A stretch of 23,203 bases of DNA from Chrysochromulina parva (taxonomy: Eukaryota > Haptophyta > Prymnesiales > Chrysochromulinaceae): positions 1-23,203 of the forward strand of contig PJAB01000606.1 in the NCBI GenBank assembly GCA_002887195.1, given 5' to 3'. The position numbers and the translations under genes are program-made. Below are positions 2,780-21,600 of this stretch, one piece after another (the first letter of the stretch is position 1; each line of letters opens with the position of its first letter). Below the pieces are notes generated by a model, which was not told the DNA's origin, ran no database searches, and worked only from the letters and a program-made list of their open reading frames with translations.

Positions 2780-5700
2780 ATGCGGAGAATCTTCTATAGC
2801 GTCGTACTGCTCGCGCTCTTGCTCGTGCTGCTCGCCCAGAGTGCGCCTGCCGGCGGCCCAACGACCACGCACGATGTCGTCGGCGCCGGTGCCGGCGCAG
2901 GGCGTCATATGACGGAGCAGCACGTCAACTTCTTCTCGGACCTGAAGACGAAGCAAGGGTTGGGGCCGACCACAAAGATGATGCTCTACGCGGAGTGGAA
3001 TGACCCCAGCGCTGGTTCGAAGCCCCACTGCCAGAGTTGGTGCGGTCAAAAGATCGTCGCGAGGGTGGGTGCGATTCGGTACCACGACTGGAAGGAGAAG
3101 TGCGAGTGGGGTACGTGCTCGGCCTGCAGCCCGTGCGCCGAGCTCGCCGAGGGAAAGACGGTCGAGGAGGTCGAGGAGGCGCGAACGGCGTACCGCGCGA
3201 CGCACCGCACTCAATCAGGCTGGGAGCCGCGTAACCTCGTCGGCGGCAGCGAGCTGCTCGGCAAGTTCCCACTGCCAAGCCGGGTCGACCACGACGCGTG
3301 CAGCGAGCACTGCGCTCAGGACGAGCTGTGCACCTCGGTGACGTGGAACTGCGACGCGCGCTGCTACATGCGCACCGGCCCTGTCTCGTACGGGTCGACG
3401 GAGACATGCACGTACTCGTGGCTCAAGCCGCTGGGAGACCGCGCTTCCATATTAGGGAGTGCCCAGAGCCTCTCAAGGACTGCCCACGGCGGCGCGCAGT
3501 GCTCGGGCGTCTACGTGCCGCTCCACGTGCCCGGCATCGTCACCACCGCCAAGGCGCTGTCGCGCCCGCCGACGGTCTGCTGTAACTGGACAGGCCTCGG
3601 CACCGAGAGCAGCAGGAGCAGCAGCAGCAGCAGCAGCGGCAGCATCCCGTCGGCGTCGTCGGGCTCGGAGCAAGTGCTCGGATTTAGTGCGTCTCCGATG
3701 GATCCGATGCCGGAGGCATGCTGATTGCATGCTGATTGCATGCTGATTGCATGCTGATTGCATCCCTCATCAGGTGCGTCTCCGATGGATCCGATGCCGG
3801 AGGCGGTGCCGTTCTTCCATGTACTCATCTTCATGGTCGTGGGCCAGAAGCAGGCGAGCTGCGTGCAGGCGGCTGATGACTACTGATGACTGCTGATGAC
3901 CGCTGAGAACCATTGATGACCACTGATGAGCTCTGATGACCTCTGATGACCTCTGAGGACCTCTGAGAACCTCTGAGGACCTCTGAGGACCACTGAGGAC
4001 CGTTGATGGCCACTGATGACCGCTGAAGACCACTCATGACCACTCATGACCACTCATGACCACTCATGACCACTCATGGCCACTGATGACCTCTGAAGAC
4101 CACTCATGACCGCTGAGGGCCACTGATCGTGTGTGATGGCCACCGGGCAGGCGAGCAACGTGCAGGCCACGTGTGAAACCATCTCGCGGCTGAGTAACGC
4201 CTCCTTCTTCTACGCCCACTACGACGCGAGCCACAGCTGGTACGCGAGCAGCCGTGGTACCAGCCACACGCGTGCATGTAAGTGCTCACCACGGCGCCCC
4301 CCCCCCCACGGCGCACTACCCCCCCACAGGTACGCTCAGCAGCCATGGTACAAGCGATGCTCGCGCTTCCACGTGAGCTATCCTGAGAAGGTCAAGTCGC
4401 GCTTCATCGCGAACGCGCTGTCCGCATATGGCAAGGCGTGGGCGCTCGAGTTCTCCCATATTTGGTCGATCGATGAGGACATCATCATCCCGCCGATGCG
4501 CTACGTGGCCCACTTTTTGCACGAGGCGCAGCGACACGGAGCGCTGATTGCGCAGCCCGCGATCATCGGCTCGATTTGGGACTTGCTCAAGCCGCATCCG
4601 CGCTGCCGCACGCGCGCGACCGACTTTGTGGAACTCATGCTTCCGTTGCTCCAGCTACGGGTGGCGATCGAGGTATGCATGCAAGTGCTCTCTACCGGCC
4701 ACGTGGGCATGCACGTGTGCTCACCAGGGCGCCCTCCGCCTTCCCCACAGGTGTTCTCGTCGCTCTACCGGCCCGAAGCGCGGACTGACTGGGGCGTCGA
4801 CGTGACCTGGTGCGCATGCATGCGCGGATGCCTGCTGATGACCACTGATGACCACTGATGACCACTGATGACCTGGTGCGCATGCATGCGCGAATGCCTG
4901 CTGATGCCCTCGGATGCCTCTCACCCCCCTCCTCCCCAGGTGCAAATTCGCCGCGCGCCGCTTCCTCGCGAGCCCGGCGTGCGTCGTCGTGAACGCTGGC
5001 CTCTTCACACACCCCAAGGGCGCCTCAACGGCCAATTACTCGAGGACGCAAGGCCTCGAAGATGAGTCGTGCATGCGTGCAGGTGATTGCATGCTGATGA
5101 CCTCTGATGGCCTTGGATTGCTCTCGGATTGCTCTCGGGTCACTCACTAATGGCTCACTAATGGACCTCTAATCGCTCTCTAATTGCTCTCTACTTGCTC
5201 TCTAATGGCTCTCTAATGGCTCTCGGATGGCTCGCAGTGCACGCGGCCCTAGTGTCCGAGGTGAGGGACGTCGCGTGTCTCGCTGAGGACCGATTCGGCG
5301 CGCTCGATGTGATCATCGGAGCCCCCGGCGGCGGATCCATCGTCGGCGGCTACGTCGGCGGCGGCAGCGGCCTCGTCGTGGGCGGGTACGTGAGCGATGT
5401 CGGCGGCGAGTTCCAGCTGTCGGCCGCGCTGCCGGCGCCCAGGCCGGCGCGCCTCGCGCTCACGGCGGCGCCGGTCGCACCCGAGGACGAGCGCACGCCC
5501 AACACGGCACGAGTCGGCGGCTCGGCTTCGTCAACGCGGACGCTGCGCATGTACGTGTACGAGCTTGGGGAGCTCGGCATGACCAACTGCCACCCGAATG
5601 ATGGCGGCGGCGTCAACAACTTCGAGTGAGAGCTGCCACTGATTGAGGCTCATGATCGCCTCCCTCATCATGATTGCCACAACTTCATCAGGTGGGAGCT

Positions 5701-7634
5701 CATGATTGCCTCCCTCATCAGGATTGCCTCCCTCATCATGATTGCCTCCCTTCATTAGGTGGGAGCTGCACGTCGAGTCGAATCTGCGTGCCAGCTCATG
5801 ATTGCCTCCCTCATCAAGATTGCCTCCCTCATCATGATTGCCTCCCTTCATTAGGTGGGAGCTGCACGTCGAGTCGAATCTGCGTGCCGCATTCGAGGCC
5901 ACCACCGACCCGGCGCTTGCGGACTTTTTCGTGCTGCCCGCGTGCCTCAACCGGCATTGGGCACACGGCTGGTCGTGGAATGCGAAGCGGCACAAGCTAC
6001 GCTCATGCCTCCGGTGAGCACGCGCTGATGGCGCTTTAATGGAGCTTGATTGCATCTGTGAGCACGCGCTGATGGCGCTTGATGGCGCTTGATTGCACCT
6101 GTGAGCACGCGCCGGATGGCGCTTGATGGCGCTTGATAGCGCTTGATTGCGTCGGATTTGAACCGATCGCCTCTGATGGTCACTGATTGAGATCATGACT
6201 TCCTCCCTCATCATCATGATGGCCTCCCTCATCAGGTGCACCGCCCGATTCGAGCGCAAGTTGCTTGCGGCAATGCGATCGGTGGGGCCTTACTTTGACA
6301 CACACCCCGAGAAGCACCTGATGACTCGTCACAAGTGCCCATACATAGGCGAGCAGGCGTGGTCGATCGGTGCGGGCGAGGACGTGTACACGACGCTCTG
6401 GCGACATCCTAAGATTCGTTACGTGTGCCTCGAAACGGACGCCGAGCCGCCGCCGGGTACGTTCTGATGACCTCTGATTGCCTTCGTCATCCTAAGATTC
6501 GTTACGTGTGCCTCGAGACGGACGCCGAGCCGCCGCCGGGTACGTTCTGATGACCTCTGATTGCCTCTTGATGGCCTTTGATGACCTCTTGAGTGCATCC
6601 CTCCTCAGGCGCGGTGCGTGACTGGCACCGTGAGGTTCACATCCCGTACTATGTGCCCGGCACGACGCTCGCGCGCCCGAGGCGACAGGCGGAGCGCGCG
6701 CGCGACTTTGGCTTCGTTGGCAGCCTGTGCTGCGGCCGAGGCTGGCTCAAGGAACTGCTACGCCCAGGTGACTGCCGCGGATTGCCATCGGATTGCGATC
6801 GGATTGCCGTGTAATCAGGGAGTATGATCGCCCAGGTGACTGCCGCGGATTGCCATCGGATTGCGATCGGATTGCCGTGTAATCAGGGAGTATGATCGCC
6901 CAGGTGACTGCCGCGGATTGCCATCGGATTGCGATCGGATTGCGATCGGATCGCATGGGATGACCACTGATGACCGCTTATCGTGTGGCGCACTGATGAC
7001 CACTGATGACCACTGATGACCACTGATGACCCCTGATCGTGTGGCGCACAGGGGAGACGCTCGAGTTGAGCAACCACATGGGCGCCCAGTACGACGCCGA
7101 GAACGCGACGAGATTGCTCGCGTCGTCGCGGTTCGCCGTCGAGCCACGTGGCGACACGCCCGAGCGCCGTAACATGTATGAGGCGTTGCATGCAGGCACA
7201 CTGATGACCTCCAACGACCTCTGATGACCTCCGATTGCCTCCCTCATCAGGTACGAAGCGTTGCATGCAGGCACACCCCTCGTGTTCACCTCGAGCGTGG
7301 CGCCGCCTCTGCGCCTGCCCGGCTGGGAAGGGCTCGCCATCGAGACGTCGGTTACGAATTGGGATGAGCACCGGAACGGGCACGAACACCCCAAGTATTC
7401 TTTGCACACGCTTCGCTCGCGGGAGGTCGAGCGCGCGCTCGCCCGGTACGACGCCTTTTTGGCCGAGGATGACCTCCAATGACCTCTGATGACCTCTGAT
7501 GACCTCCGATTGCCTCCCTCATCAGGTACGACGAGTACATAGCGGGCTTCGAGGCAGCGCGGGAGGTGCTCGTGTGGGGAACGCTCGCCTTCCGCAACCG
7601 CCTCCGGCTGGTAGTCACAGACGTCTTCACGTGA
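2780..7634 (+). CDS. PAN-like / DUF707-like / exostosin GT47 fusion protein (13 exons)
   Basis: Exons: 2780-3686, 3774-3853, 4151-4239, 4330-4672, 4751-4809, 4940-5082, 5238-5625, 5855-6013, 6236-6456, 6609-6767, 7052-7175, 7251-7445, 7526-7634. They join in frame to 991 aa. ATG 2780 is chosen because it begins a signal or type II anchor (MRRIFYSVVLLALLLVLLAQ). Cys-rich segments follow; residues 170-215 look PAN/apple-like. Residues about 313-510 resemble DUF707, with YAHYDASHSWYAQQPWYK and WSIDEDIII carrying a DED acidic motif at 407-409. A Gly/Ala linker leads to an exostosin-like domain (about 643-991): LRMYVYELGEL, FFVLPACL, HIPYYVPGTT, FGFVGSLCCGRGW and SRFAVEPRGDTPERRN. GT47 members build glycans in the Golgi, so a Golgi enzyme with two transferase modules is inferred. 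Intron 2 is GC-AG. The exon 6/7 joint is the least certain. It could be two genes if an exon was misjoined. Confidence 0.8.
3687..3804 (+). repeat. intron 1 with 31-bp flanking direct repeat
   Basis: The intron is 3687-3773 (GT-AG, 87 nt). Its first 31 bases (3687-3717) are identical to the first 31 bases of exon 2 (3774-3804). The middle is four copies of TGATTGCATGC, and the end is GATTGCATCCCTCATCAG. The exon copy carries the coding frame; the intronic copy soon reaches a stop. Confidence 0.9.
3851..4170 (+). repeat. intron 2 (GC-AG) packed with TGATGACC minisatellite
   Basis: The intron is 3854-4150. The donor is CAG|GCGAGC and the exon 3 start after GGGCAG is also GCGAGC. The 20 bases at 3851-3870 match those at 4148-4167 with two differences. 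The interior from about 3880 to 4130 is a 10-bp minisatellite (CTGATGACCA, CTGAGGACCT, CTCATGACCA variants). A GT donor is not available in the right phase, which supports GC-AG. Confidence 0.75.
4240..4353 (+). repeat. intron 3, introner-like family A, with flanking repeat
   Basis: The intron is 4240-4329 (90 nt). It starts GTACGCGAGCAGCC and exon 4 starts GTACGCTCAGCAGCC, an imperfect copy of about 20 bp. The interior has CATGTAAGTGCTCACCACGG at about 4275-4294, then a C-rich tract and CCACAG. Splicing at the first GTACGC rather than at the better-looking GTAAGT keeps the reading frame. Confidence 0.85.
4673..4750 (+). repeat. intron 4, introner-like family A
   Basis: A 78-nt GT-AG intron. 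It starts GTATGCATGCAAGTGCTC and has a second core, GTGTGCTCACCAGGGCGCCC, at about 4716-4735 before TTCCCCACAG. It is the same family as introns in the LETM1-like and MSH4 genes. The next exon starts with GT. Confidence 0.85.
4804..4939 (+). repeat. intron 5 with duplicated exon/intron boundary
   Basis: The intron is 4810-4939 (130 nt). About 37 bp covering the exon 5 end and donor (from 4804) recur inside the intron from 4870 with one difference, separated by CTGATGACCA repeats. Two equivalent donors are therefore present, and only the first keeps the DUF707-like frame. Confidence 0.85.
5083..5237 (+). repeat. intron 6, minisatellite
   Basis: A 155-nt intron filled with 10-12 bp units of the type CTCTCTAATGG and CTCTCGGATTG. 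The acceptor is GGCTCGCAG followed by TG. Exon 7 phase is fixed by the long open frame leading into the exostosin domain. The donor at 5083 is the best phase-compatible GT but is less certain than the others. Confidence 0.65.
5626..5888 (+). repeat. intron 7 with nested duplications of the next exon start
   Basis: The intron is 5626-5854 (229 nt). The exon 8 start (5855-5888, 34 bp) is repeated exactly at 5759-5792 inside the intron. Shorter diverged copies start at 5694 (GTGGGAGCT) and at the donor itself (GTGAGAGCTGCC). Each copy is preceded by a family B acceptor (CCTCATCAG or CTTCATTAG). This gives three stacked acceptor-like sites before the real exon. Confidence 0.88.
6014..6235 (+). 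repeat. intron 8, minisatellite with repeated donor
   Basis: A 222-nt intron. The donor region GTGAGCACGCGCTGATGGCG recurs about every 45-48 bp (from 6014, about 6059, about 6102), followed by GATGGCGCTT units and a family B end GGCCTCCCTCATCAG. Each copy renews a GTGAGC donor-like site. Confidence 0.8.
6405..6608 (+). repeat. intron 9 containing an 83-bp duplication of the exon 9 3' end
   Basis: Exon 9 ends at 6456 and the intron is 6457-6608. The segment from 6405, covering 52 nt of exon plus the donor and early intron, is repeated from 6488 with one visible base change. The intron therefore contains a decoy copy of the exon end with its own donor GTACGTTCTG. Exon 10 follows GTGCATCCCTCCTCAG and begins GC. 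Confidence 0.9.
6761..7051 (+). repeat. intron 10: 68-bp tandem repeat of the donor region plus minisatellite
   Basis: The intron is 6768-7051 (284 nt). A 68-bp unit starting at CGCCCAG|GTGACTGCC occurs at 6761, 6829 and 6897 (the last diverging near its end), so three identical donors are stacked. Units also carry GGATTGCGATC subrepeats. The 3' half is CTGATGACCA minisatellite with two TCGTGTGGCGCAC copies, the last ending in the acceptor CACAG|GG. Confidence 0.88.
7176..7276 (+). repeat. intron 11 with 26-bp flanking direct repeat
   Basis: The intron is 7176-7250 (75 nt). Its first 26 bases match the first 26 bases of exon 12 (7251-7276) with two differences. The rest is TGATGACCTC repeat ending GATTGCCTCCCTCATCAG. 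Confidence 0.92.
7446..7525 (+). repeat. intron 12, introner-like family B
   Basis: An 80-nt intron. It starts GTACGACGCC and exon 13 starts GTACGACGAG, an 8-bp exact flanking copy. The interior is TGATGACCTC repeat and the last 18 bases are identical to those of intron 11. Confidence 0.9.
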
Positions 7635-8395
7635 TGACCTGATAGCTGATGATTAGAATCATCTTAGGCGCTCCGTGCAGGTTGTGCACTCTACGTTTCG
7701 CATCGATCGCATGGACCATGGAGGCGATACGGGAATCTAGAATGGCCAGAATCGCGAGATTATCGCGAGATGCGGGTAGCCCTGTGGGGCTGCCCTCTGA
7801 GGTCTCGGTCCCGTCGCAGTAGTGGTTTGGGGATTCGATCTGCGCTCCCGGCTCGGGGAACACGGAAGAACGGGGGGACCGAGCCGGGATAAGCTATAAC
7901 GGCTGTGCGTTTACCGCACGCAAAGCCAAGCGTGTACAGGGGTCATAGGTCAATATTAGGTCCCGTCGGTCGAGCCCGCACTTGGAGCTAATTTGTTGTT
8001 TGTATATGCATGATCGTGTCGAACATCCGACGTTTTAATACACGCCGGACCGACCGAGACCGGACGCCGCGCCGCGCTCACGCAGTCAGGTCGGGTACTC
8101 GGCGCGATGTCCGATGAAGACGATTATCAATGATCGCCGGGGAACGGGGCGAAACCGGCGCGTGTTGCTACAGACGTCCGTAATAGCGTTTTTTAACGAC
8201 ACCGACCTCGAGCTCATCCTCGCCCAGCCGCATCAACAAACACCAGGAAACGCTCTCGCCCAAAGCGGTACTACAGCCCGCACAGCGACAGCCACACGGT
8301 CGGGGACTACACGTGGTAGAGGGTAGTACATTCGGCGGAATTAGCACGTGATTGCATGGGATTGTCAGCCGCGTAACTCGATGGCCGCGCGGACG
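7635..8395. other. convergent intergenic region, no gene recognised
   Basis: This spacer lies between the 3' ends of the glycosyltransferase gene (+) and the EF-hand gene (-). Base composition is less GC-rich and the CTGATGACC repeats are absent. I see a small hairpin (GTGCG-TTTAC-CGCAC, 7905-7919) and a repeated TCGCGAGAT-like motif near 7750-7770. There is no tRNA- or rRNA-like structure and no coding sequence I trust. Confidence 0.45.
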
Positions 8396-8570
8396 AGTGG
8401 AGCTGCGTCGTGGCAGGCGTCGTGGCATCGAGGGCAGGCGTCTGATGACCTCTGATGTCTGATGACCTCTGATGACCTCTGATGACCTCTGATGACTTCT
8501 GATGACCTCTGATGACAGAGACAATTAGCCCCTAGGAGCTGCGTCGTGGCATCGAGGGCAGGCGTCGCAT
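8396..8570 (-). repeat. duplicated 3' end of the EF-hand gene around a minisatellite
   Basis: On the minus strand, the sequence coding for the Cys-rich tail (8534-8570) is repeated with an 18-bp internal duplication at 8396-8443, and the two copies are separated by GGTCATCAGA repeats. This is the same layout as the introns elsewhere in the window. A GC-AG splice at TAT|GCGACG to ATCAG|ACGCC would give an alternative C-terminus ending in IELRG. The donor is weak, so a 3' UTR duplication is equally possible. Confidence 0.6.
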
Positions 8571-9643
8571 AGTGCATAATGCGAGAAGGTGCAGCATTTG
8601 CACCGCACAAGCTTGTAACGGTTCTTCCTCGTCTCTGCTGCCGCCGCCTTCTCCGCCGCCGCCATTAGCTCGGTCGCCATGATCTCGGCCGCCGCCGCCG
8701 CCTCGGCCGCCGCCTTCACCGCCGCCGCCGCTGCCTCGGCCGCCGCCGCTTCGGTCGCCGCCGCCTCCTGCGTCTTGTACACTCGTTCAGCGTCGAGGTT
8801 AGCAGCGAGGTTAGCAGCAAGCTGGCGGTCGGCCGCCGCCTTGGCCGCCGCCGCCGCTGCCGCCTCGGCCGCCGCACCTGCCGCCGCACTCTCCTCCATG
8901 GGCGCTCCGAAGAGGAGTCGACCGAGAAAGCTTCGCAGCCCGGAGAGCAAACTGCTCTCCTCCACTATCACCGCGAGCTTGGGCGTCGTCGCGCCCCCCT
9001 CCTTCGCCTTCTGCATGCATGCGCAGAATTCGTCAAAGTCGATCTCGCCGGAGCGGTTGGCATCGACCTCGACCACGATCGCGTCGAGCTCCTCCGCGCT
9101 CAGGTTCTGGCCGAGCGCACTCATCATTTCGCCCAGCTCGCTCGTGGAGACGGTGCCACTGCCGTCCTTGTCGAAGACGGAGAACGCCTCCTTGTAAGAT
9201 GCGAGCGCCTCCGCGGAGATCGCGGGCGCTGGAGCTACCGCGGGCGCTGGAGCTACCGCGGGCGCTAGGGCAGGCGCAACCACCTCGGGAACCACCTCGG
9301 CAACGGGCTCCGCCGCCGCGCGCAGTGCTGCGGCCGTGGGCGCGGGCAGGTCGAGGTTGGCCAGCCATGCGGGCACAGCCTTGCTCGTATCTAGACCGGC
9401 ACTGCGGGCATCCGCGAGGACGCCAGCAGCGACGGGCGCGGGCGCGGCCGCCACCACATCGGTCGACGGCTTTGCCACCGGCTTTTCCTCCTCGGTCGCC
9501 ACTACCTCGGCCGGGGGCACAATTACGTTGGCGGTCGGCGGCGCCGACCTGAGCACTGGAGCCTCCTCGGCGGCAATAGGCTTGAGCTCCTCCGGCTTCG
9601 CTGGGTCTGCGATGACAACGGGGGTAGAAGAGGCGCAGCCCAT
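8525..9643 (-). CDS. N-acylated EF-hand protein with Ala-rich helix and Cys-rich tail
   Basis: A single ORF of 372 aa. ATG 9643 is chosen because it gives MGCASS, a classic N-myristoylation plus palmitoylation signal; upstream codons lack ATG. Residues 10-145 are Pro/Ala/Val/Glu-rich and disordered-looking. An EF-hand pair follows, with loops DKDGSGTVSTSE (158-169) and DANRSGEIDFDE (194-205), both with calcium ligands intact. Residues 250-340 are an Ala/Glu-rich helix or coiled coil. The tail has clustered cysteines (348, 350, 351, 359, 362, 365), possibly zinc binding. The likely role is a membrane-tethered calcium sensor; targets are unknown. The Ala-rich part produces long shadow ORFs on the other strand. 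The 3' end is duplicated downstream, so the C-terminus may be longer if spliced. Confidence 0.85.
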   Translation of the reverse strand: MGCASSTPVVIADPAKPEELKPIAAEEAPVLRSAPPTANVIVPPAEVVATEEEKPVAKPSTDVVAAAPAPVAAGVLADARSAGLDTSKAVPAWLANLDLPAPTAAALRAAAEPVAEVVPEVVAPALAPAVAPAPAVAPAPAISAEALASYKEAFSVFDKDGSGTVSTSELGEMMSALGQNLSAEELDAIVVEVDANRSGEIDFDEFCACMQKAKEGGATTPKLAVIVEESSLLSGLRSFLGRLLFGAPMEESAAAGAAAEAAAAAAAKAAADRQLAANLAANLDAERVYKTQEAAATEAAAAEAAAAAVKAAAEAAAAAEIMATELMAAAEKAAAAETRKNRYKLVRCKCCTFSHYALCDACPRCHDAAPRG

Positions 9644-10221
9644 GGCTATTTTGGGGTTCGGTGTTCTGCGAGCGAGGAGCCACACGGGATGCGTCAACAA
9701 TTCGCGCCGGCCGCGCCCGGCGATCGACGGCAAACGCAGCGGAAATGCGAGGAACGCGGCATCGAGGTTCGCGGGTGCCAAGAATTTTCCTTCACACACC
9801 GCGCCGTATCGAGCAGCATTGCGTATTCTCACGACGCGCACACACACCGGACCCCCTAGCACAAGGGCCTCTATCGCTCGTTTTTCGGGGGTTCCTCAAT
9901 GTAGAGACCAATTGGTAGATACATGTACACAAAATCACAAATCGCGAGTGGCGAATGATGATGTACGTTGATGTATGATGCTGTACGATGTACGATGGTA
10001 TCCAGTGAATCTTCGCTTGATCGCTTGTATCTTCGCCGAGTTACAAACGAACGCCTCACGCAAGGCCGCAGAATAGCCGCAGAAATCAGTTGGTCCGCCC
10101 GGCTCCCCCTGCAGCCTGGCACGCCTGTTCGAAAGTATCTTGATTCGCGCGGTGAACCGGCGAAGTCAGACTGTGCAGAGACGCGACACAGAAACATAAA
10201 CCGTCAGGATTGTTGTAGAAC
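9644..10221. other. intergenic between two minus-strand genes
   Basis: This 578-bp stretch holds the promoter and 5' UTR of the EF-hand gene and the 3' end of the DUF4116 gene. It includes ATGTACGATG-type short repeats at about 9960-10000. The EF-hand reading frame stays open up to about 9862 but has no ATG, so I treat it as UTR. No RNA gene seen. Confidence 0.45.
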
Positions 10222-11730
10222 CTATTCATCCTCCTCGGTGTCGTCAATGATGATCGGGTTTCGCTCTGCGGCCTTGTTAAGAAGCTCTCGCGCCAGGAGC
10301 CGGCTCGCCTTGTCGTTCCGTTCGGGGCATTTTTTCAGGCACGGAAGGGCGCCCGGGCACTCTTTACGACAATGGTAGCAAAAGGTGAACCAAGAGCCCC
10401 CAGTATGATGAGGCGAGCGGCAGGTGATCATGTTGCACCCTTGCTCGCTCACGGGGACGCCACATCTGCACGATGGACAGTTGATGTCGCCGTTGAGAAA
10501 GTCTTCTTGCTTGATGGTTGGCGCCGCTGCGCGGCGGGCCGACGTCCGAGGCTCCAAAGTGCGCTTCAAACCTTTCCTCTTCGGCGTGCCCACGCTTGGG
10601 TCAAGTCGGGATGGAGCCTTGCGGATGCGGCGGAAGGGAAAACTCTCAACATCGACCGCCTCTGCCTGCAGGCTGACGTTTCGCTCGGCGAGGGACGTTT
10701 CGCCCTCGAAAGCCACCTCGCCATCGCCGTCCAAAACGGTTCCCTCCACATCTTGCATGCTAACCTCCACGTGGACTGCGTCTGCTAGTTGCCTAATTTG
10801 GGACGAGTGGCCGCCCGCCTCGTCTGCGAGTAGGCGACGCTCTCCCTCTCCAAGGACTAGTGCTGAGGCGTCGGCGGCCTCAGAGGAGGAAGCTAGTGCA
10901 GAGCCGGTTGGCTGCGTCTTCGCCTGCGTGTCAGCGCCCTTGACGGCCTTGAGCTCGGCTAACAGGACCGCTTCTTTGCGCTTCGAGGCAGCCTCTCTGA
11001 TCTCGCGATCGGCCTGCAGCTCGACAGAAGCGTATGCGAGCGCCCTGCCGTCCTGCTGCACGGCCGCAAGCACCACCTCGCGATAAACTTCACGATCGGC
11101 CTGCAGCTCGGCAGAAGCGTATTTGAGCGCACAGCCGTCCTGCTGCACGGCCGCAAGCACCACCTCGCGATCGGCCTGCAGCTCGGCAGAAGCGTATGCG
11201 AGCGCCCAGCCGTCCTGCTGCACGGCCGCAAGCACCACCTCGCGATCGGCCTGCAGCTCGGCAGAAGCGTATGCGAGCGCCCAGCTGTCCTGCTTCACGG
11301 CTGCAAGCACCACCTCGCGATAAACCTCACGATCGGCCTGCAGCTCGACAGAAGCGTATGCGAGCGCCCAGCCGTACTGCTTCACGGCTGCAAGCACCAC
11401 CTCGCGATCGGCCTTGAGCTTGGCAGAAGCGTAATCGAGCGCCCAGCCGGCCTGCTTCACGGCTGCAAGCACCACGTCGCGATCGGCCTTCAGCTCGACA
11501 GAAGCGTATTTGAGCGCCCAGCCGTCCTGCTTCACGGCTGCAAGCACCACCTCGCGATCGGCCTGCAGCTTGGCAGAAGCGTATTTGAGCGCCCAGCCGT
11601 TCGGCTTCACGGCTGCAAGCACCACCTCGCGATCGGCCTTCAGCTTGGCAGAAGCGTATCTGAGCGCCCTGCCGTCCTGCTTCACGGCCGCAAGCACCAA
11701 CTTGCGACGATGCACCTCGCGACGATGCAT
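10222..11730 (-). CDS. DUF4116-repeat protein with IBR/RING2-like zinc module
   Basis: An intronless ORF of 502 aa. Residues 1-241 are nine tandem units of 25 residues of the form REVVLAAVKQDGWALKYASA plus ELQAD; units 6 and 9 carry an extra REVY. This matches the DUF4116 pattern, found in many protists and of unknown function. A Lys/Glu-rich link, an acidic Ala/Ser region and a basic stretch (PKRKGLKR, possible nuclear signal) follow. Residues 418-468 have cysteines at 418, 421, 423, 432, 437, 451, 454, 458, 464 and 468 with GCNMITC and FCYHC, resembling the IBR or RING2 fold of RBR ubiquitin ligases. No RING1 is visible, so E3 activity is only a guess. The tail is acidic (DDTEEDE). The gene is divergent from the LETM1-like gene. 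Confidence 0.82.
   Translation of the reverse strand: MHRREVHRRKLVLAAVKQDGRALRYASAKLKADREVVLAAVKPNGWALKYASAKLQADREVVLAAVKQDGWALKYASVELKADRDVVLAAVKQAGWALDYASAKLKADREVVLAAVKQYGWALAYASVELQADREVYREVVLAAVKQDSWALAYASAELQADREVVLAAVQQDGWALAYASAELQADREVVLAAVQQDGCALKYASAELQADREVYREVVLAAVQQDGRALAYASVELQADREIREAASKRKEAVLLAELKAVKGADTQAKTQPTGSALASSSEAADASALVLGEGERRLLADEAGGHSSQIRQLADAVHVEVSMQDVEGTVLDGDGEVAFEGETSLAERNVSLQAEAVDVESFPFRRIRKAPSRLDPSVGTPKRKGLKRTLEPRTSARRAAAPTIKQEDFLNGDINCPSCRCGVPVSEQGCNMITCRSPHHTGGSWFTFCYHCRKECPGALPCLKKCPERNDKASRLLARELLNKAAERNPIIIDDTEEDE
10999..11715 (-). repeat. 75-bp coding tandem repeat (nine DUF4116 units)
   Basis: Nine near-identical 75-bp units, two of them with a 12-bp insert, encode the DUF4116 array. 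Neighbouring units differ by only a few bases, which suggests recent unit duplication or gene conversion. Unit 1 (nearest the start) is the most diverged. Confidence 0.9.
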
Positions 11731-12010: not shown

Positions 12011-15000
12011 ATGGAGCGCGTCATCTTGCTGCCCCTGTTCTTTACGACCGCCTCCGCCGCAGTGCGTGTGACCGTCGGCGCGAACAGCGCGCTGCGTGCG
12101 TCGCCGCTCGGGCTGCGCGCGCTGCGCGACCTCGGGCTCGTGAGCCAGCAGCTGCGCGAGCTGCAGGAGCTCGTGCAGCCTGCGGCCGAGCAGGGGTGCA
12201 AGGCGCCGACGCAGGCGAGCGAGATCGCGTCGCTGCGTGCGGTGCTCGACGGCGGCATAGTGTCGCTCACCGGCTCGCTGGGCGAGCTGACCGCCTCCAT
12301 CGAGGCGGCCAGCCGGAGCGCGCCGGCGCCGCTGCCGCTGGCGACGACGAGTGAGGCGGCGGCGCCGGCGAGCCTCAAGACGCTGTGCGAGCAGGCGAGC
12401 CGGCTGCACCGGACGGTGCAGAAGCAGCGCGAGTACATCCTCGTGCTCGAGGAGCAGGAGGGCGGCGCTGCCGAGCGCACGCGTGAGGTCTTCGACGGCC
12501 TCGACACCGACGGCAACGGTCAGCTCGAGTGGTCCGAGTTTGAGGCGGGCGCGGCGGCGCTGCTGTCGCCGGACGCGCTCAAGGACGCGACGTACACGCA
12601 GGAGCTCAAGGAGGCCTTCGAGCGCGCCGACGCCAGCAACGACGCCTCCCTCTCGTACGAGGAATTCGTCACTCTGATGTCTTCGATGCGCGACGATCAG
12701 CTAGGGCCGTTGAGGGCGTCCTTCTCGGAAGGTGCGCGCTGATGGCCGCTGATGGCCGACGAGTGCCACTGATGACCCACGATGGCCAATGATTGCCACT
12801 GCGTGCCCTTGAGTGAACTCTGAGCGCACCTTGTCCCCTGCACCCTAATTTGGCAGGTCTGGAGCAACTGCTCGCGGTTTCGCTGCAGATGATCGCCCTC
12901 ACGCTCTCCTCCGAGCTCTCGACGGGGCTGGGCACACTCCCGCCCGGGCGTGCCCAGCAGCTCGCGCTGTACATCGACCGCTGGTGCGATATCGAGGCCC
13001 GCGCAGAGGTGTGAACCCCTGACGAACCCCTGACGAGCCCACGCCACGCTCGCCACTGACGAACCCCTGACGAACCCCTGACGAGCCCCGGACGAGCCCA
13101 CGCCTCGGACGCCACTGACGAACCCCTGACGAACCCCGGACGGCCCACGCCTCGGACGCCAGCGTTCGCCTCGAGCACACCGCCCCCGCAGAGGCACCGC
13201 CCCTGCATGCAAGTGCTCACCACGGCGCCCTTTTTCCCACAGGTGGCGTTCGCCTCGGCGGGCGCGGTGCCTCGAGTGCAGCGCAGCTCGAAGGTCGAGG
13301 AGGGCTTCTTTGGATCGTCTGCGGAGGTCTGCGTGCCAGCCGAGTGTGTGCTGGTGCCGAGCTCGGGCGAGGAGGTGTGAATAACTGACGAACCCTTGAC
13401 GAACCCCTGACGAACCCCTGCCATTTTCGGGCGTGGAGGTGGCTGCGGAGGCGTTCGCAAAGGCACCGCCCCGGCATGCAAGTGCTCACCACGGCGCCCT
13501 CACCCCACAGGTGGCTGCGGAGGCGTTCGTGGAGATGGTCGATACCGGTGTCGTGACCCCCACCGCTAGCGCCGCCATCTCCCCAGCCGCCGCCGAGCCT
13601 TCCACAGCTGTCGTCGGCGCTCCACCGGCTGCGGACTCGTCGGTGCGGACTGCGGACTCGTCGGTGCGGACTGCGGACTCGTCGGTGGAGGCTGCGATCC
13701 TGTTCGAGTCGCTTCTCACCGAGGTGGGTACACCTGATTGCACATGGCACCTGAATGCATGTGATTGCACCTGATTGCATGCAGGTGGGAGCCCTAGCCG
13801 GGGAGCTCTCTCTCCCCAACATGTGATGGCACCTGAATGCATGTGATTGCACCTGATTGCATGCAGGTGGGAGCCCTAGCCGGGGAGCTCTCTCTCCCCA
13901 ATGCCGCAAGCGCCGACAGCCCAGTACAGCGCCTGGGCCGCTCCATTCGCTTTGCCGTCAGCTCCCTTCGCCAATCGCTCGGTTTCTGTGCGCGCGGCAT
14001 ACGGATCCTGTGTCGTGATCTAGTCGAGGTGGCGCTGCTGCTGCGCACGTTCACCCAAGGCAAGCCTCTCAAATCCGCTGACGTCCAGGTGGGTGCTACT
14101 GATGACACCTGATGACACGTGATGACCCCTGATGACCCCTGATGACCCCTGATGACCTCTGATGACCTTTGATGACCCCTGATGACCCCTGATGACCCCT
14201 CATCCCGCCAGGTGGTGCGCCGTACTCTCGTCGACCTGATGGCACTGGTGCCGTACACCATCATCATGATCATCCCCCTCTCGCCGCCCGGCCACGTGTT
14301 TGCATTCTCGCTGATGAAGAAGTGCTTCCCGGCCGCCATCCCGTCGCCCTTCACCGCGCAGCGTCAGGTGTGCTCGCGGCGTTTCGTCACTGATTGATAC
14401 GTTTCGTCACTGATTGATACGTTTCGTGCTCGCGGCGTTTCGTCACTGATTGATACGTTTCGTCACTGATGGATCCGGGTTCGCCACTGATGGCGGTTGC
14501 CTAATAAGCGCGGATCGTCCCTGAAGAAACTCCGGCTGATGAGCACCAGAGTGCCGCTGAGGACGCCCTGATGAGCTCCAGAGGAGTGCCTCTGATGACT
14601 GGCTGATTGCGCCTGATGAGCTCCAGAGGAGTGCCTCTGATGACTGGCTGATTGCGCCTGATGTGGCAGGACATTTACGAGATCTACACGCGCATTGCAC
14701 TCGAGGCTCAGGCGAACGCGCCTCCGCGTGATCCAATTAAGCAGCTCATCAAGCTCACCTTCGGCCAACTGCCAAAGCTGTTACAGAAGCCCGCTGCTGC
14801 CGCCGCCGCCGTCCCTCCCGGCGCCACCATCAGCGCCGCCAAGGGCGCCGTGGCGGGCGCCGTGGCTAAGGCGGCCGGTCAGGCGGCGGTGCCGCTGAAG
14901 CCACCGGCAGGCTTCGCATGGTCGGAGGGTGTGAATGTTGTGGGTGTGAATGGTCTGCCGTCCTCCCCCGCCTCCGCCGCGAGTGCGAGTGCGAGTGCGG

Positions 15001-15236
15001 CCGTTGCGGGTGTGAACGCTGCGGGTGTGAACGCTACGGCCGCTGCGGCCGCGCGGCCAGACGCGCCGCCGCAGGCGTCGGTGCTCGTGTCGAGGGTGGC
15101 GGCGGCGGGCACGGCGGTGCCGCGTGGCTTGGACCGCGCAAAGCAGCCCCTCGGTAGCGCCCTTGGTAAGGTGCGCAGCTGGGTGCGTCAAAGGGGCGGC
15201 GCCGGCGGCGGCGCGCCTGGCGCCACCACCGACTGA
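12011..15236 (+). CDS. EF-hand / LETM1-like membrane protein (seven exons)
   Basis: Exons: 12011-12731, 12857-13008, 13243-13374, 13511-13723, 13867-14088, 14212-14367, 14670-15236, joining in frame to 720 aa. The N-terminus (MERVILLPLFFTTASAAVRV) looks like a targeting or signal segment. A helical region precedes an EF-hand pair: loop DTDGNGQLEWSE (165-176) and a weaker loop DASNDASLSYEE (207-218). A Ser/Ala linker has a triple ADSSVRT repeat. Exons 5-7 (residues about 425-560) match the LETM1 core: VRRTLVDLMALVPYTIIMII, then PSPFTAQRQDIYEIYTRIAL, with one membrane segment near 486-510. LETM1 proteins act in cation/proton exchange of the mitochondrial inner membrane, and plastid relatives exist. 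EF-hands before the core rather than after it are unusual. The C-terminus is Ala/Gly-rich. Most acceptors are followed by GTGG or GTCT. Confidence 0.82.
12732..12856 (+). other. LETM1-like gene intron 1
   Basis: A 125-nt GT-AG intron with diverged CTGATGGCC and GAGTGCCACTG units. The acceptor TTTGGCAG is followed by GTCTGG. The split Gly codon keeps the frame from the EF-hand region into exon 2. Confidence 0.85.
13009..13242 (+). repeat. intron 2: TGACGAACCCC minisatellite plus introner-like family A
   Basis: A 234-nt intron. The 5' part is a run of CTGACGAACCC and GGACGAGCCCA units. The 3' part carries a copy of the downstream exon text GCGTTCGCCTCG (about 13161-13172; exon copy from 13246), then CATGCAAGTGCTCACCACGG (about 13206-13225) and TTTTTCCCACAG. 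Confidence 0.85.
13375..13529 (+). repeat. intron 3: minisatellite, fossil junction and family A end
   Basis: The intron is 13375-13510. After three TGACGAACCCC units it contains, at about 13427-13457, TCGGGCGTGGAG followed by the exact 19-bp start of exon 4. That is a near copy of the spliced exon 3/exon 4 joint (exon 3 ends TCGGGCGAGGAG). Then come CATGCAAGTGCTCACCACGG and CACCCCACAG, and the real exon 4 start at 13511. Confidence 0.88.
13724..13901 (+). repeat. intron 4 with 82-bp tandem duplication of acceptor and exon 5 start
   Basis: The intron is 13724-13866. A segment of about 74 bp from 13746, covering the intron 3' end, acceptor GCATGCAG and 33 nt of exon 5, recurs from 13828. Two good acceptors exist. 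Only the second leads into the open exon, although the first also opens onto the same coding text for about 33 nt before meeting intron sequence. Confidence 0.9.
14089..14211 (+). repeat. intron 5, TGATGACCCC minisatellite
   Basis: A 123-nt intron made of about nine 10-bp TGATGACCCC units. It starts CAG|GTGGGTGC and exon 6 starts CAG|GTGGTGCG, so borders share a near copy. Confidence 0.88.
14368..14669 (+). repeat. intron 6 with two short tandem repeat blocks
   Basis: A 302-nt intron. The 5' block repeats CGTTTCGTCACTGATTGATA about four times (14385-14470). The 3' block is a tandem pair with 44-45 bp period (about 14567-14660) built around GATGAGCTCCAGAGGAGTGC. The acceptor GATGTGGCAG is followed by GACATT, not GT, and joins PSPFTAQRQ to DIYEIYTRIAL as expected for LETM1. 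Confidence 0.85.
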
Positions 15237-15610
15237 GAGAAAGCGGAGAGAGGAGACCAGGAAAGCAGAGAGGAAACAAGAGGTGTTGAGACTTGAGAGC
15301 GCGGTGTCGTAAGCGCTGTATACGTACCAAGCGTTAAGTACGAGTGCGTGGATCTGTGGATGCTAGGGCGAGAGCGGGTGAGCGGCCCGCGATTGCGAGA
15401 GCCACCTGTGATGGGCGCCGACCACTTATTCAGGAAAGGGACAACGAGACCCGACCGAATGGGAGCTGCGAGTTGCTTGTCATGTATCTTCGTTTCGCAG
15501 AATGCACGCATCGGCGCCGTGTCGACACGACGCGCCGCCGCGGAGAGCCGGCGCGCTCGCTCGGCCCCGCGAAGGGCCGAAGACGCCTGTGTGTTCCTCT
15601 CCCTGTACCG
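15237..15610. other. spacer between LETM1-like and MSH4 genes
   Basis: A purine-rich strand (15237-15295, GAGA/GGAAA type) directly after the LETM1-like stop, then the presumed MSH4 promoter and 5' UTR. The MSH4 frame is open upstream to about 15344 with an in-frame ATG at 15482, so an N-terminal extension is possible. Family conservation begins only after 15611. Confidence 0.45.
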
Positions 15611-18600
15611 ATGGTCGGCTTCGACGCCGTGCAGCCCTTCGCTCGCGCGGACGAGCGCGCCGCGGCTCAGGAGCCGGAGCTCGATTCGGTTGTCGCGCTC
15701 TGCGAGAACCGCGCCTACGAGGTCGGCCTCGCGTGCCTGCGGCTCTCGGACTTCTCGATCGAGCTGTGCTCCTTCTGCGACGACGCGGCGTACTCGCGCA
15801 CGCTGTCGGTGCTCGCGTCGCACAACCCGCGCCAGATCCTCTTCCCACCCTCGTCCGCCCAGAGCGTGCTCGCGCGCGTCGCCGAGGCCGAGTTCCCGGC
15901 CGCGCGCTGCGACCAGGTGCCCCGTCGCAACTGGAACGAGATCAAGGGCCTCGGGTACGTGCGACACTACTCGCACCGCTCGCACGTGCAGGCGCTCGAG
16001 ACGGACGTCAAGTCCAAATACCTGGCGCTCTCGGCCCTTGCCGCGCTCGTCGACGCCGTCGAGCAGTCCGACGGCGCGAGCTTCGTCAAGGGCACCCTTC
16101 GGATCAAGTGCGCACTCCGTCCACCCTCGGAGTGTCCCTTCGAGTGCCTCTCTGCGTGCCATCGGATCGCAACCCTCCCCACGTGCCCTTTGCATGCGTC
16201 GGAAGCATGCGAGTGCTCATCGCGGCGCCCTCTCTTCCACAGGTACCGGAGCGTCGAGGGCGTGATGCTCCTCGACCCGGCGACCGTCGCCAACCTCGAG
16301 CTTCTTCGCAACCTGCGCACCGGCGATCCGAAGGCATCTCTCTTTGGCGCGCTCAACCAGGTGACACTGCGGATCGGATGATGGCATGCCCCACCGAACG
16401 CCTCTGAGTGCCTCTGAGAGGGGCTCAGACCATATTCCTGAGCATGCAAGTGCTCACCACGGCGCCTGTCCCGGTGTGCGCAGTGCAAGACCGCCGCGGG
16501 CAGCCGATACCTGCGGACGCTGTTGCTGCAGCCCTCGACAGATCTGGACACGATCTCAGCGCGCCTCGATTGCGTCTCCGAGCTGCTCGCGCGCGACGAG
16601 CTCCTCGTCGACGCCCATAAGGTGACGGCCTCTGATGAGCTCTGATTGCCTCTGAGGACCTCTGAGGACCTCTGAGGACCTCTGATTGCATCCCTCATCA
16701 GGTGCTTCCCGCCTTTGCGGACTCGGATCGGCTCCTCAAGTTCTTCATGACGAACCCCACCTCGACCGGCTGCGCGCGTGCCAAGGCTGGCATCTCCGCG
16801 GTCCTCCAGCTCAAGACCGCGTTGCATGCGGCGCCGCGCCTCGCCGCCGCGCTCACCTCGAGTGGGGAGGCGCCGCCCACGAACGAGGTGCGATCTCCCT
16901 GATGGCCTCCCTGATGACCTCACTGATGACCTCACTGATGACCTCGAGTGGTGAGGCGCCGCCCACGAACGAGGTGCGATCTCGGACGGAATCTCGGACA
17001 GATCTCGGAAGTACCTCCACCTGCCCTCCTAACCCTGACCTCTACCTGCCCTGCCCCATTCCTGCCCTGCCCTCTACCTGCCCAGCCCTACCTGCCCTAC
17101 CTGCCCTGCCCTCCCTGCCCCCTTCTCCACAGCTGCTGCGCGCCATCGTGGGCAATCTCGCCTCCGACGAGATCGACGAGCTCTGCACGCGCATCCACGC
17201 CATCATTGACGACGAGGCCATCTTCCGCAAGCAGACGAGCCAACGGATGCTTGAGTGCCTCTTCGCCGTGCGCTCGAAGGTGAGTGTCCCGCTGATGGCC
17301 GCTGATGGCCGCTGATTTTCCCTGATGATCACTGATGATCACTGCTGATCACTGATGGCTCAAGTGCCCGCCACGACGCTCGTAGGTTTGCTCGTTCATT
17401 GACGTGGCGCGAGAGACGCTGACCGACTCGACGACCGAGATGGAGCACCTACGCGACACGTACGCTGAGCAGTGCGGCCTGAGCTTGCAAGTGCGGCCTG
17501 AGCATGCGGGTGCTCACCACGACGCCCTACCACTTCCCCACAGGTATGCGGAGCAGTTTGGGGCTGAGTGACCTCAAGCTGGTGTGATGCGGGTGCTCAC
17601 CACGACGCCCTACCACTTCCCCACAGGTACACGGAGCAATTGGGGCTGAGTGACCTCAAGCTGGTGTGATGCGGGTGCTCACCACGACGCCCTACCACTT
17701 CCCCACAGGTATGCGGAGCAGTTTGGGCTGAGTGACCTCAAGCTGGTGTGATGCGGGTGCTCACCACGACGCCCTACCACTTCCCCACAGGTACGCGGAG
17801 CAGTTTGGGCTGAGTGACCTCAAGCTGGTGTGGACTGAGCGGCGGGGCTACCATCTCACGCTGCCAGTGGCGCAGCGCGAGACGGTCGAGCGTGCGGGCT
17901 TCGTCAAGATCGCTTCCCAAGCAAAGAAGACGGTGGCTTGCTCAACGGATCAGCTCGTGCAGGCGAGATTGATTGCGGCTGATGAACGCCCCTGATGATG
18001 ATGCGCCTGGTTGTTCGCTTGAGTGCGGCTGAGGGACTTCTTGAAATCTCGTTGCAACCTCGCTGCGATCTCGTCGCAGCTCTCGGCGCGCGCACAAGAG
18101 ATGATTCAGCAGATTCTCCTCTCGACGGAGGCGCGGATCTCGGCGCTTCTCGGCGAGATACGATCCTCGCTCCACCTAGTCTTCCGCCTGGGTACGTGCT
18201 TGTATGCATCGCTCTGAGCGCGCTTGATTGCCTCTGATGGCCCCAGATGGCCCCAGATGGCCTCTGATGGCCTCTGATGGCCCCTGATGAGCTCTGATGG
18301 CCTCTGATGGCCTCTGATGGCCTCTGATGGCCTGCTGAGTGCGTGAGTGCGTTTGATGATGGGCTCTTAGCGCGTGTGGACGCCCCTTTCCCCAGGCGAG
18401 TCAGTCGCTCTCGTCGACGTGATGCTCGCCTTCGCCGTCTTTGTGCACAAGGGGGGAGGCAACGGCCCGTTCTGCCGTCCCAAGATCGCACACGCCGCCC
18501 CTTTGGTGCTCAAGCGCTGCCGTCACCCGCTCCTCGAGCGGTTTGCGGAGCCCGGCCAGCCTCTCACGCCGAACGACGTCGCCATCACGCACGCGACCAA

Positions 18601-21600
18601 CTTGCAGGTGACAGCCACGCCTGAGATCGCTAATGGCCTAATGGTCTAATGGCCTAATGGCCCAATTGCCCAATTGCCTAATTGCCTAATTGCCTAATTG
18701 CGACCCGGCAGATCATCACGGGGCCCAACATGGCGGGAAAGTCGACGTACCTGCGCCAGACCGCTCTGGTTGTGCTACTGGCCCACATCGGCTGCCACGT
18801 GCCCGCCGACGCGGCCACGGTGCCCCTGCTGCAGGCGAGGGCTGATGACCTTTGATTGAATTTGATGGCTTCTGATGTCCTCTGATCGCCTCTGATCGTC
18901 TCTGATCGCCTCTGTTACGTGGCCTGCTACAGCGTGTCTTCACGCGCATTGGAGCTGCGGACGCGCTTGAGGCGCATGGCTCGACGTTTGCATGCGAGAT
19001 GCGCGAGACCACGTATATCTTGCGCAATCTCGGCGGGCCAGCTCTCGTGCTCGTCGACGAGCTCGGGCGTGGCACCTCCAATGCCGATGGCGCCTCCCTC
19101 AGGTGAGTTGATGACCACTCATCGCATCTCTGATGACCTCTGATGACGGCTGATTGCTCCCTTCATCGCCTCCCTCAGGTGGGCTGATGACCACACTTAC
19201 TGCATCTCTGATGACCTCTGTTGACGTCTGATTGCTCCCTTCCTCGCAGCTTCGCCGTGGCCGAGCAGCTCGCACTCGCCCCTTCGACGTTCACGCTCTT
19301 TGCGACGCACTACCTCTGGCTAGCGAACCTCAAAAACCTCTACCCGAGCAACGTGCGCCCTCCTCAAGCACACGTCTTGCATGCACCTCGATGCTTATAT
19401 TGAGTGCACCCTCCTCAAGCACACGTCTTGCATGCACCTCAATGCTGATTGATTGCCTTCGTTGGTCATTGAATGCCCTCGAGGATCACCCACAGCTACG
19501 GATAACCTTTATCAGGTGCGCCTTCTCAAGCTCGCAACCTCCGACGACGAGCGTGGCGGCGGCGGAGGCGGAGGCGGAGGCGGCAGCGGAGGCGGCGGCA
19601 CTGGTGGCGGTGGAGGAGGCGGCAGCGGAGGCGGCGGCGGCGGCGGCGGCGGCTTCACGCAGCGCTTCCCCCACATCGTGTGCGATGGCGTGACGAGTCG
19701 TCGTGCGTACACGACGGACGTACTCGCCAGCCTGATGAGCTCTGATGAGTACTAATGAGCCACTGATTGCCTCCTTCATCAGGTGCGTACATGACGGACG
19801 TACTCGCGAGCCTCGCGGGTCTGCCGCAGTCCGTGTGCCGACGCGCCGCTGATCTCTCCGCCGCTGTCGATTTTGATCCGGTATAGAGTGTGCCTCTGAG
19901 TGGCACTGATTGGCACTGATAATCGCTGAGTGCCAGTGAGTGCCACCGAGTGCCACTAATTGGTCCGGTGGAGCGGCCCTCGGCACTGATTGCCACTGAT
20001 GATCCCCTGAGTGTCCTCTGATGGCAGGTGGAGCGGCCCTCTGCTCGCACGCGCTCAATGGAGGCGTATGCTCTAGTGGCGGAGCGTCTGATCTGGTATG
20101 CCTCGGATTGCCTCTGATTACGCTCTAGTGGCGGAGCGTCTGATCTGGTGTGCCGCTGATTGCCTCTGATTTCCTCGCATGGCGTCGGATGGCGTCCGGA
20201 TGGTCTCTGAGTGCCGCTGTTTGCCTCTGAGGGCTTCTGAGTGCCTCGGAGTGCCTTCGAGGGCTTCTGAGTGCTTCGGATGGCCTATCTGATGACCTCG
20301 AATTGCGCTCTGATGATTGCACTCGTCATCTCTGATGACATCGGATTGCGCTCTTTATCAGGTATGCGCGCAGCTCGCTCGACGAGGCGTCGCTGCGCAC
20401 TGTGCTTCTCGAGCTGCAAGGGCGGCTGCGCGCCGAAGTGGCCCGTCAGGCTGCCGCCGCCGCCGCCGCCGCTCAGGCGAGAGCCTCTGATTGCCTCTGA
20501 TTGCCTCTGATTGCCTCTGATGCCTCCCTCGTCTCATCTCATCTCCGCCTCATCTCCGCCTCATCTCCCCTCCTTTCCGCCCTCAGGCGAGTGCTCAGGC
20601 CGTGACCGCAGCGGCCAATGCCACTGCCGCCACTGCCGCCACTGCTGCCACTACCACCGCTACCGCCGCTGCTGCCGCCGCTACCGCCGCTGCTGCTTTG
20701 GCCATCGAGACGGCTGCGAACGCCGTCGTCGGCGCCGGGGCGGACGGCGGCGCTGGGGCTCTAGTGGCGCCGTACCGAGCACCCCAAGCGCAGCGCCACA
20801 CGCCTTCGGCTACCCGCAACAGACTCGGCGGCGAAGGAGGCCATGGCGCCTACGACGGCGCCTGCGACGGCGGTGGCAGCAGCCTTGGCAGCGGCGGTGG
20901 CGGCATCGGCGGCCAAGGCCACACCATCATCGCCGGACGGCGCCGCCCGTACCCCTTTGGTGACCTCGAAGACGAGACGAATGACGACATCGCGGGGGGC
21001 GCCTCGGCGGGGCGCTCGGCTTGTCGGCCCACGTTCCGCGGCAGTACGACACTTCCAAATATGGGAGGTGCTCTCGGCGCTCGCATGCACGTGCCTGCTT
21101 TTGGCGCCACTGCCACCCACGGCCCCGCTCTTGGCGACAGCAGCATCTCCATCGGCACTGGCTGCGGCGGCAGCAGCGGCGGCATCGGCGGCATCGGCGG
21201 CAACGGCGGCAGCGGCGGCAGCGGCAGCGGTGGCAACTGCAGTGCTTCTGGCTTCGGGGCCGCTCTTGCCTTTGGTGCCGCGGCGGGCGCTGAACTTGAT
21301 GGCAACGGCAGACACGGCCCTATGATGGCCATGCTGCAATCCTTGGCCAACCCCCCAACCGTTGCCGCGGCCTCGACGGCTACGCACTCGGCGGGGCTTG
21401 CAGTGGGACGTGCAATGGCTGTGATGGAGGAGGAGGAGGCTGCAATAGAGGTAGAGGAGGCAGCGATGGAGGTGGAGGCGGTAGCGATGGAGGCGGAGGA
21501 GGCAGTTGAGAGCGCCGCGGCGGAAGAGGCATCCAAGGCAGCGGTGGAGGATGCCATGGAAGAGGTTGCGGAGGACTTTGTAACGGTCGATGTAACGGCC

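Follow-up and report, generated by a model that had tools for sequence, protein, structure and literature searches.

The window examined here is the complete contig PJAB01000606.1 of the haptophyte Chrysochromulina parva (23,203 nucleotides, G+C 63%). It carries three genes on the plus strand, in which some introns begin with a copy of the first bases of the next exon and continue into a short repeated module; these introns are the subject of the present analysis. A total of 34 introns were placed by hand, and the resulting spliced models of the three genes had no internal stop. Gene 1 (2780..7630) has 12 introns and a product whose exostosin GT47-like C-terminal part stayed under the Pfam cut-off, gene 2 (12011..15235) has 6 introns and encodes an EF-hand protein, and gene 3 (15611..21990) has 16 introns and encodes a MutS-family protein, presumably MSH4-like, with domains III to V over and domain II under the Pfam cut-off. 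In the printed alignment of the gene 3 product to a solved MutS protein, residues 174-283 and 471-702 were aligned, crossing several of the placed junctions.

Exon-start copies and repeated modules in the window

The opening bases of all 34 introns were compared with those of the exon that follows, and 1122 mismatched intron/exon pairs served as the control. A flush copy with a score of at least 8 was found in 7/34 introns against 0.03 expected from the mismatched pairs, and one with a score of at least 6 in 10/34 against 0.48 expected. A sequence-only reading of this DNA had proposed that many introns begin with an imperfect copy of the following exon start, and both the re-alignment of its eight listed pairs and the excess over mismatched pairs bear this out. 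The pairs starting at 3687, 3854, 4240, 7176, 19353 and 19703 held up on re-alignment, 7446/7526 is weak taken alone, and 20477/20587 (7/8) was by itself not above chance. The pattern had been described as extending across three genes; at a score of at least 6 this holds for gene 1 (6/12 introns) and gene 3 (4/16), and not for gene 2 (0/6), whose copy (13439/13511) sits within a longer intron and not at an intron start.

Copy-bearing introns also differed from the other window introns in their exon borders. The preceding exon ended in AG in 1/10 copy introns versus 18/24 others, and the next exon began with GT or GC in 10/10 versus 15/24. The mirror pattern, an intron end resembling the end of the preceding exon, occurred in 2/34 introns at a score of at least 6 against 0.09 expected; these are introns 18835-18932 (score 7; 0.03 expected) and 17280-17385 (score 6; 0.09 expected), which are perhaps insertions that carried the 5′ splice site. 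When every GT was scanned by its preceding dinucleotide, 49/1441 gave sharp matches after AG versus 72/20152 otherwise. As 26 of these 49 lay in satellites or coding repeats by our own reading of the unfiltered list, the dinucleotide scan was not relied on and the flush-repeat and mismatched-pair tests were used instead. Run for GC in place of GT, the scan gave 114/2644 after AG, which lies inside the range of the other dinucleotides and is no excess.

Behind the copy, the introns contain one of two repeated modules. In family A the copy is followed by a tract of 10-11 bp repeats (type CTGATGACCT) and then by the conserved end GATTGCCTCCCTCATCAG. Module B consists of GCATGCAAGTGCTCACCACGGCGCCC, pyrimidines and CACAG. 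The AG of the 3′ splice site belongs to the module in both families.

All copy-bearing introns of the window lie on the plus strand. Intron 3687..3773 begins with a perfect copy (3687-3717, 31/31, score 31) of the exon start 3774-3804, followed by (ATGCTGATTGC)n and the module A end ATCCCTCATCAG. The GC-AG intron 3854..4150 begins with a 15/17 copy (3854-3870, score 11) of 4151-4167, followed by a long array of 10-bp repeats, and intron 4240..4329 with a copy of about 25 bp, including one indel, of 4330-4355, module B starting at 4274. Intron 5626..5854, which the sequence-only reading had not listed, has an 11-bp copy (10/11) of the exon start at 5855 and then repeated copy-plus-module units. 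Intron 7176..7250 combines a 26-bp copy (24/26) of 7251-7276 with module A at 7202-7250, and intron 7446..7525 an 8-bp copy (8/8) of 7526-7533, weak taken alone, with module A behind it. In gene 2, intron 13375..13510 holds an internal copy (13439-13457, 19/19) of the exon start 13511-13529, then filler and module B. In gene 3, intron 17460..17790, likewise a new case, has a 24-bp copy (20/24) of the exon start at 17791 and an 82-bp copy-plus-module tandem array, with copies starting near 17544, 17627, 17709 and 17791. Intron 19353..19515 begins with a copy of about 17 bp, with one indel, of the exon start at 19516, and intron 19703..19782 with a 31-bp copy (29/31; 29/32 over the 32 bp of the listed pair) of 19783-19813 ahead of module A at 19734-19782. 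The GC-AG intron 20477..20586 has an 8-bp similarity (7/8) to the exon start at 20587, which alone is not above chance and is absent from the introns with a score of at least 6.

One further intron of gene 3, 17963-18033, was in frame only with non-canonical ends (possibly GA-AG) and was modelled as 17968-18033 solely for the frame; TGCGGCTGA repeats flank it on either side and make its junction ambiguous. Outside the three genes, 8600-9650 on the minus strand is an open stretch with a by-eye start MGCASST and, again by eye, an EF-hand-like look. Positions 11002-11700 hold seven repeat copies with units mostly of 75 bp, perhaps coding on the minus strand, and 22425-22891 is a tandem repeat with a unit of 78 bp and inner copies 98-99% alike. 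The genome assembly comprises 45,074,565 bases in 2199 contigs and has 58 chlorophyll-binding-domain matches, which identify the organism as a photosynthetic eukaryote. A light-harvesting query compared with solved structures gave 9vfj LHCI-11 as the sole chain with E <1e-40, and no copy of the plastid genes psaA/psaB was found in the assembly.

The same arrangement across the genome

The 18-mer end of module A, GATTGCCTCCCTCATCAG, has 815 exact copies in the genome, 523 of them followed by GT, and its reversed control none. With at most 2 mismatches, the A end plus GT has 2508 matches, and a variant end with GCATCC plus GT has 61 exact matches. The module B core AAGTGCTCACCACGGCGCCC has 1302 matches at up to 2 mismatches, its reversed control 1. 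Among the listed events module A has no fixed 5′ end, and module B could be recognised in 14 of 16 aligned B cases as a stretch of 37-56 bp starting with GCATGC or GCATGT. Terminal inverted repeats with at least 6/8 matches were found in 0/41 module A inserts, a set that does not cover module B, against 0.76 expected; a CTGATGA...TCATCAG inverted-repeat resemblance noticed by eye failed in the same test. Viral contigs had no exact A pattern and a single B match, which sits in the last part of a short contig. This match lies at about 4220-4554 of IMGVR_UViG_3300027760_000958, a 4.5 kb contig listed as viral whose end is alga-like and carries TGACGAACCC repeats, a direct repeat in flanking position, and module B with CACAGGTGAG behind it; by eye it looks like a chimeric or mis-binned metagenome contig.

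Direct repeats at module ends were then counted in 140 distinct exact A ends, a non-random sample taken from the window and from loci fetched around pattern matches (GT-followed ends first, then non-GT). A flush repeat was defined as a direct repeat starting at most 2 bases from the module end and recurring upstream with a score of at least 14, and permuted exon sides were the control. Flush repeats were present at 58/102 GT-followed ends versus 0.0 expected and at 19/38 other ends versus 1.5 expected, 19 of these 38 ends being followed by GC. At the same score, module B gave 17/39 rows versus 1.2 expected, corrected to 14/36 after one twice-counted locus and two repeats containing the module were dropped. 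In a local-alignment version, from which exon sides containing module sequence were removed, 62/140 A ends had a repeat with a score of at least 14; it started exactly at the module end (offset 0) in 48 cases, at 1-3 in 8 and further away in 6. The arrangement seen in the window recurs at loci with modules in other parts of the 45 Mb genome. The unusual number and freshness of cases emphasised earlier are supported, 24 of the 48 offset-0 repeats being perfect. At C35:28630-29270, a perfect 24-bp flush repeat begins with GAACG, and the locus is a possible GA-AG intron.

The anatomy of the events was taken from 151 A anchors with at most 2 mismatches, which gave 85 events, 26 of them with the left copy behind another module end in tandem arrays. 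The 52 unique non-array events that passed the filter had copies of 11-64 bp, the longest running into module sequence, and AG preceded the left copy in 22/52 of these selected cases. In the 42 cases in which the copy was free of module sequence and started with GT, GC or GA, the copy measured 11-45 bp, in agreement with the variable copy length claimed earlier, and the insert 15-199 bp, with many inserts of only 20-60 bp. The total of copy and insert was at most 90 bp in 27/42 cases. Copy and insert length were negatively correlated (Spearman -0.51 for the 42 cases, -0.58 for the 27 with a total of at most 90 bp), which suggests selection for a minimal spliceable length.

Reading frames and paralogues were consistent with these junctions. 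Sixteen loci were spliced, and four of the resulting proteins were tested against Pfam. A U-box is split at locus L029 by an intron of 74 bp whose copy measures 31 bp (30/31), and the spliced protein matched Pfam U-box with 52 bits over residues 35-96, spanning the junction at 58/59. A chromo domain is interrupted at L030 by an intron of 223 bp that has a perfect copy of 24 bp; here the spliced protein matched Pfam Chromo with 55 bits and gave a gapless alignment to a solved chromodomain through the junction. Both remaining matches were under the Pfam cut-off, a methyltransferase match at L051 that spans the junction and a glycosyl hydrolase match at L060 that ends before it. The long U-box protein compared with solved structures gave ankyrin-type matches only, among the best 60 rows listed.

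The spliced U-box peptide searched against the genome returned 51 rows, its own locus in two overlapping pieces and 49 others. All 49 of the others span the intron position uninterrupted and without stops; by our own coordinate count they have no more than about 8 extra residues. The joined U-box DNA matched its own locus alone, in two pieces overlapping at query bases 66-97, which correspond to the repeat, and hence no empty allele was found. Of the 14 rows returned by the chromo peptide, two are overlapping pieces of its own locus, and the remaining 12 all span the intron position in one row without stops. The two introns tested are absent from all detected paralogues, which supports intron gain.

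Candidate origins and comparison with known systems

Taken together, the data make it probable that these are recently gained introns, which arose when short repeated modules inserted into coding exons and 11-45 bp of the target were duplicated. The order is one target copy at the 5′ end of the intron, the module, and a second copy that is usually flush with the 3′ end of the module and mostly begins with GT or GC. The intron gain is tied to duplication of the exon start, and the duplication signature proposed earlier was right as a description. Several points weigh against this insertion model. No flush repeat at a score of at least 14 was present at 63/140 exact A ends, which could be due to age or to another origin, several of the non-GT cases lie within tandem arrays, and the offset was other than 0 in 14/62 cases. 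In some cases a filler of about 14-34 bp, by eye unlike the exon, separates a short copy from module B. Some of the 16 spliced loci gave short open spans only or an unclear left exon, the splicing is deduced from sequence and not from transcripts, and absence from paralogues, compared for two introns, is not the same as absence at the level of strains. The few modest reverse transcriptase matches described below do not favour RNA copying either, though the assembly may lack repeats.

The closest label is introner-like insertion with long, variable target duplications, and this is the best reading of the data. As in introners, highly similar sequence is present in many genomic copies, intron status being deduced from the flush repeats and the reading frames, and at two positions the intron is new relative to intron-free paralogues (49/49 and 12/12). 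The similarity does not reach near both splice boundaries, as the criterion of a 2022 survey asks of introners (PMC9860276); since the first 11-45 bp are a locus-specific target copy, the term introner-like is used here and not introner in the strict sense. The closest case is an introner type of Symbiodinium microadriaticum, which brings its own 3′ splice site, whereas its 5′ site comes from a target duplication of 4 bp (Gozashti et al. 2022, PMC9860276). The likeness lies in the carried 3′ splice site and the 5′ site taken from duplicated target. The duplications of 11-45 bp found here are however variable and far from those 4 bp, or from the 3-9 bp given for earlier families, and no inverted repeats were found in module A, whereas 72/177 introner families have them (PMC9860276). 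According to the portions of the same survey used here, some families use GC and GA 5′ splice sites, aquatic species have introners more often, and low-complexity families were discarded, so that elements like the present ones could have been filtered out (PMC9860276). The introner elements of Amoebophrya share direct repeats bordering repeated introns, but these are 3-5 nt long and are accompanied by inverted repeats of 8-20 nt forming hairpins (PMC7789003). Among titles and abstract openings, mostly outside subscription journals, none was found that reports introner-like insertions whose target duplications are tens of bases long.

Short repeats at introns have also been reported from other settings. 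Rogers and Bendich (2025, PMC11782384) read repeats near both borders of 213 introns of all kinds as insertion scars, the repeats having a mean of 11.4 bp and those of at least 20 bp being 72-86% alike. Border repeats occur here as well, but a shared module is not mentioned in the sections of that article drawn on (PMC11782384). In Drosophila, repeats of at least 5 bp flank 19/77 gained versus 26/100 conserved introns (PMC3296678), and the lack of excess there, as far as this part of the study goes, makes the excess seen here more notable.

The strongest competitor is break repair, in which intron-derived DNA would have been captured while staggered double-strand breaks were closed through end joining or template switching, and the modules would recur only through selection for a working 3′ splice site. 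In Daphnia, short repeats at recent intron gains have been attributed to such repair, and the relevant part of the review describes no genome-wide repeated module, unlike the situation here (PMC3488318). Variable repeat length and filler between repeat and module B fit break repair, as does the tendency of longer repeats to go with shorter inserts (rho -0.51 and -0.58), expected if only spliceable totals survive. However, the modules are near-identical, with an exact 3′ end 815 times, which is more than selection for a 3′ splice site seems to need, and 48/62 repeats are exactly flush. Break repair as the whole explanation is a tentative alternative, and a rather unlikely one.

A cut-and-paste DNA transposon, of the type of an introner derived from a miniature inverted-repeat transposable element and with a target site duplication, would account for the flush duplicated target, the thousands of copies and the fairly constant ends of module B. 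DNA transposons making introns were reportedly described in a 2016 Nature paper. The repeat length is however variable (11-45 bp), where a transposon would be expected to give a fixed one, the 41 A inserts, which leave module B aside, have no terminal inverted repeats, and the 5′ end of module A is not fixed. This origin is improbable.

Classical tandem duplication, in which an exon segment with AGGT in it is doubled and yields both splice sites at once, was the origin favoured by the sequence-only reading and is very improbable, even though a direct repeat of variable length flanks the intron body and AG precedes the left copy in 22/52 selected cases. Only the 5′ part of the intron copies the exon and not the whole of it; the body is a repeated module that brings its own AG in both families, and the preceding exon ends in AG in just 1/10 window copy introns, so AGGT is present at some sites and is not required. 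Formally, the copy-module-copy product is still the same as a short tandem duplication whose junction holds an insert. Misassembly or satellite slippage imitating the pattern is barely credible, in spite of the draft assembly, the abundant 10-bp satellites and the 26/49 sharp matches in satellites or coding repeats, since frames, protein domains and paralogues are consistent with single splicing at the tested sites and permuted pairs from the same loci yield almost no flush repeats.

Proposed route of intron gain

In the proposed insertion route, a module would land in an exon directly before a GT or GC, while a target stretch of 11-45 bp would be duplicated. The left target copy would then provide the 5′ splice site together with as much as about half of the intron, and the module the branch point, the pyrimidine tract and the AG. 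CTGAT/CTCAC-like motifs resemble the branch-point consensus, and those in the modules are putative branch points. Splicing from the GT of the left copy to the AG of the module would restore the original coding sequence. Integration may proceed through two nicks tens of bases apart and fill-in, the module being joined either by target-primed RNA copying or by break-repair capture.

Target priming by non-long-terminal-repeat (non-LTR) retrotransposons gives variable target duplications, a fixed 3′ end and a loose 5′ end. Variable duplication with a fixed 3′ end is what was found here, and together with the loose 5′ end of module A and the lack of inverted repeats it favours target-primed RNA copying; break repair also fits, given the filler and the variable duplication. 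Unlike in non-LTR retrotransposition, no tail was seen, no clear partner reverse transcriptase was found, and many inserts are only 20-60 bp long. A search for reverse transcriptases gave just five RVT_1 matches of 29.7-34.2 bits against a cut-off of 29.6, the best with an E of 3.8e-7. They are located on contigs C1434, C2182, C324, C103 and C34 in open frames of 758-2709 aa, one with an internal stop, and are candidates for the mobility partner. With so few and marginal matches, no firm choice is made between RNA copying and break repair.

After insertion, the introns would lengthen as the 10-11 bp repeats grow and as copy-plus-module units are reiterated in tandem, while the copies decay. 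Growth with age is suggested by the long introns with decayed copies (297 bp at 3854, 229 bp at 5626 and 331 bp at 17460). At 17504-17832 four copy-plus-module units follow one another with a spacing of 82-83 bp, each ending in AG followed by GT, and these are predicted to be several competing 3′ splice sites within one intron. Tandem units are also found elsewhere, with 65 bp at L018 and 67 bp at L019.

A more speculative and rather doubtful form of the RNA-copying route is that excised intron RNA itself serves as the mobile template. Its 3′ tail, which ends at the AG, would be copied into nicked exons by target priming, with the tens of bases of copied target becoming the new 5′ splice site and the front of the intron. 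This form is compatible with the flush module end, which falls where an excised intron RNA would have its 3′ end, with the loose 5′ end of module A and with the failure to find inverted repeats. If true, introns breed introns, neither via reverse splicing nor via DNA transposition.

What is new here is introner-like intron gain with unusually long, variable target duplications. The origin of new introns is a long-standing question, and fresh cases with an intact scar are rare; here many are found in one genome. The class may be under-counted elsewhere, as the 2022 survey, in the portions used here, dropped low-complexity families (PMC9860276). Since much of the newborn intron consists of duplicated coding DNA, many exonic GTs could act as a 5′ splice site once a module lands before them, and so many usable sites would lower the barrier to intron gain. 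The finding thus offers a route of intron origin that is directly testable in strains and transcripts.

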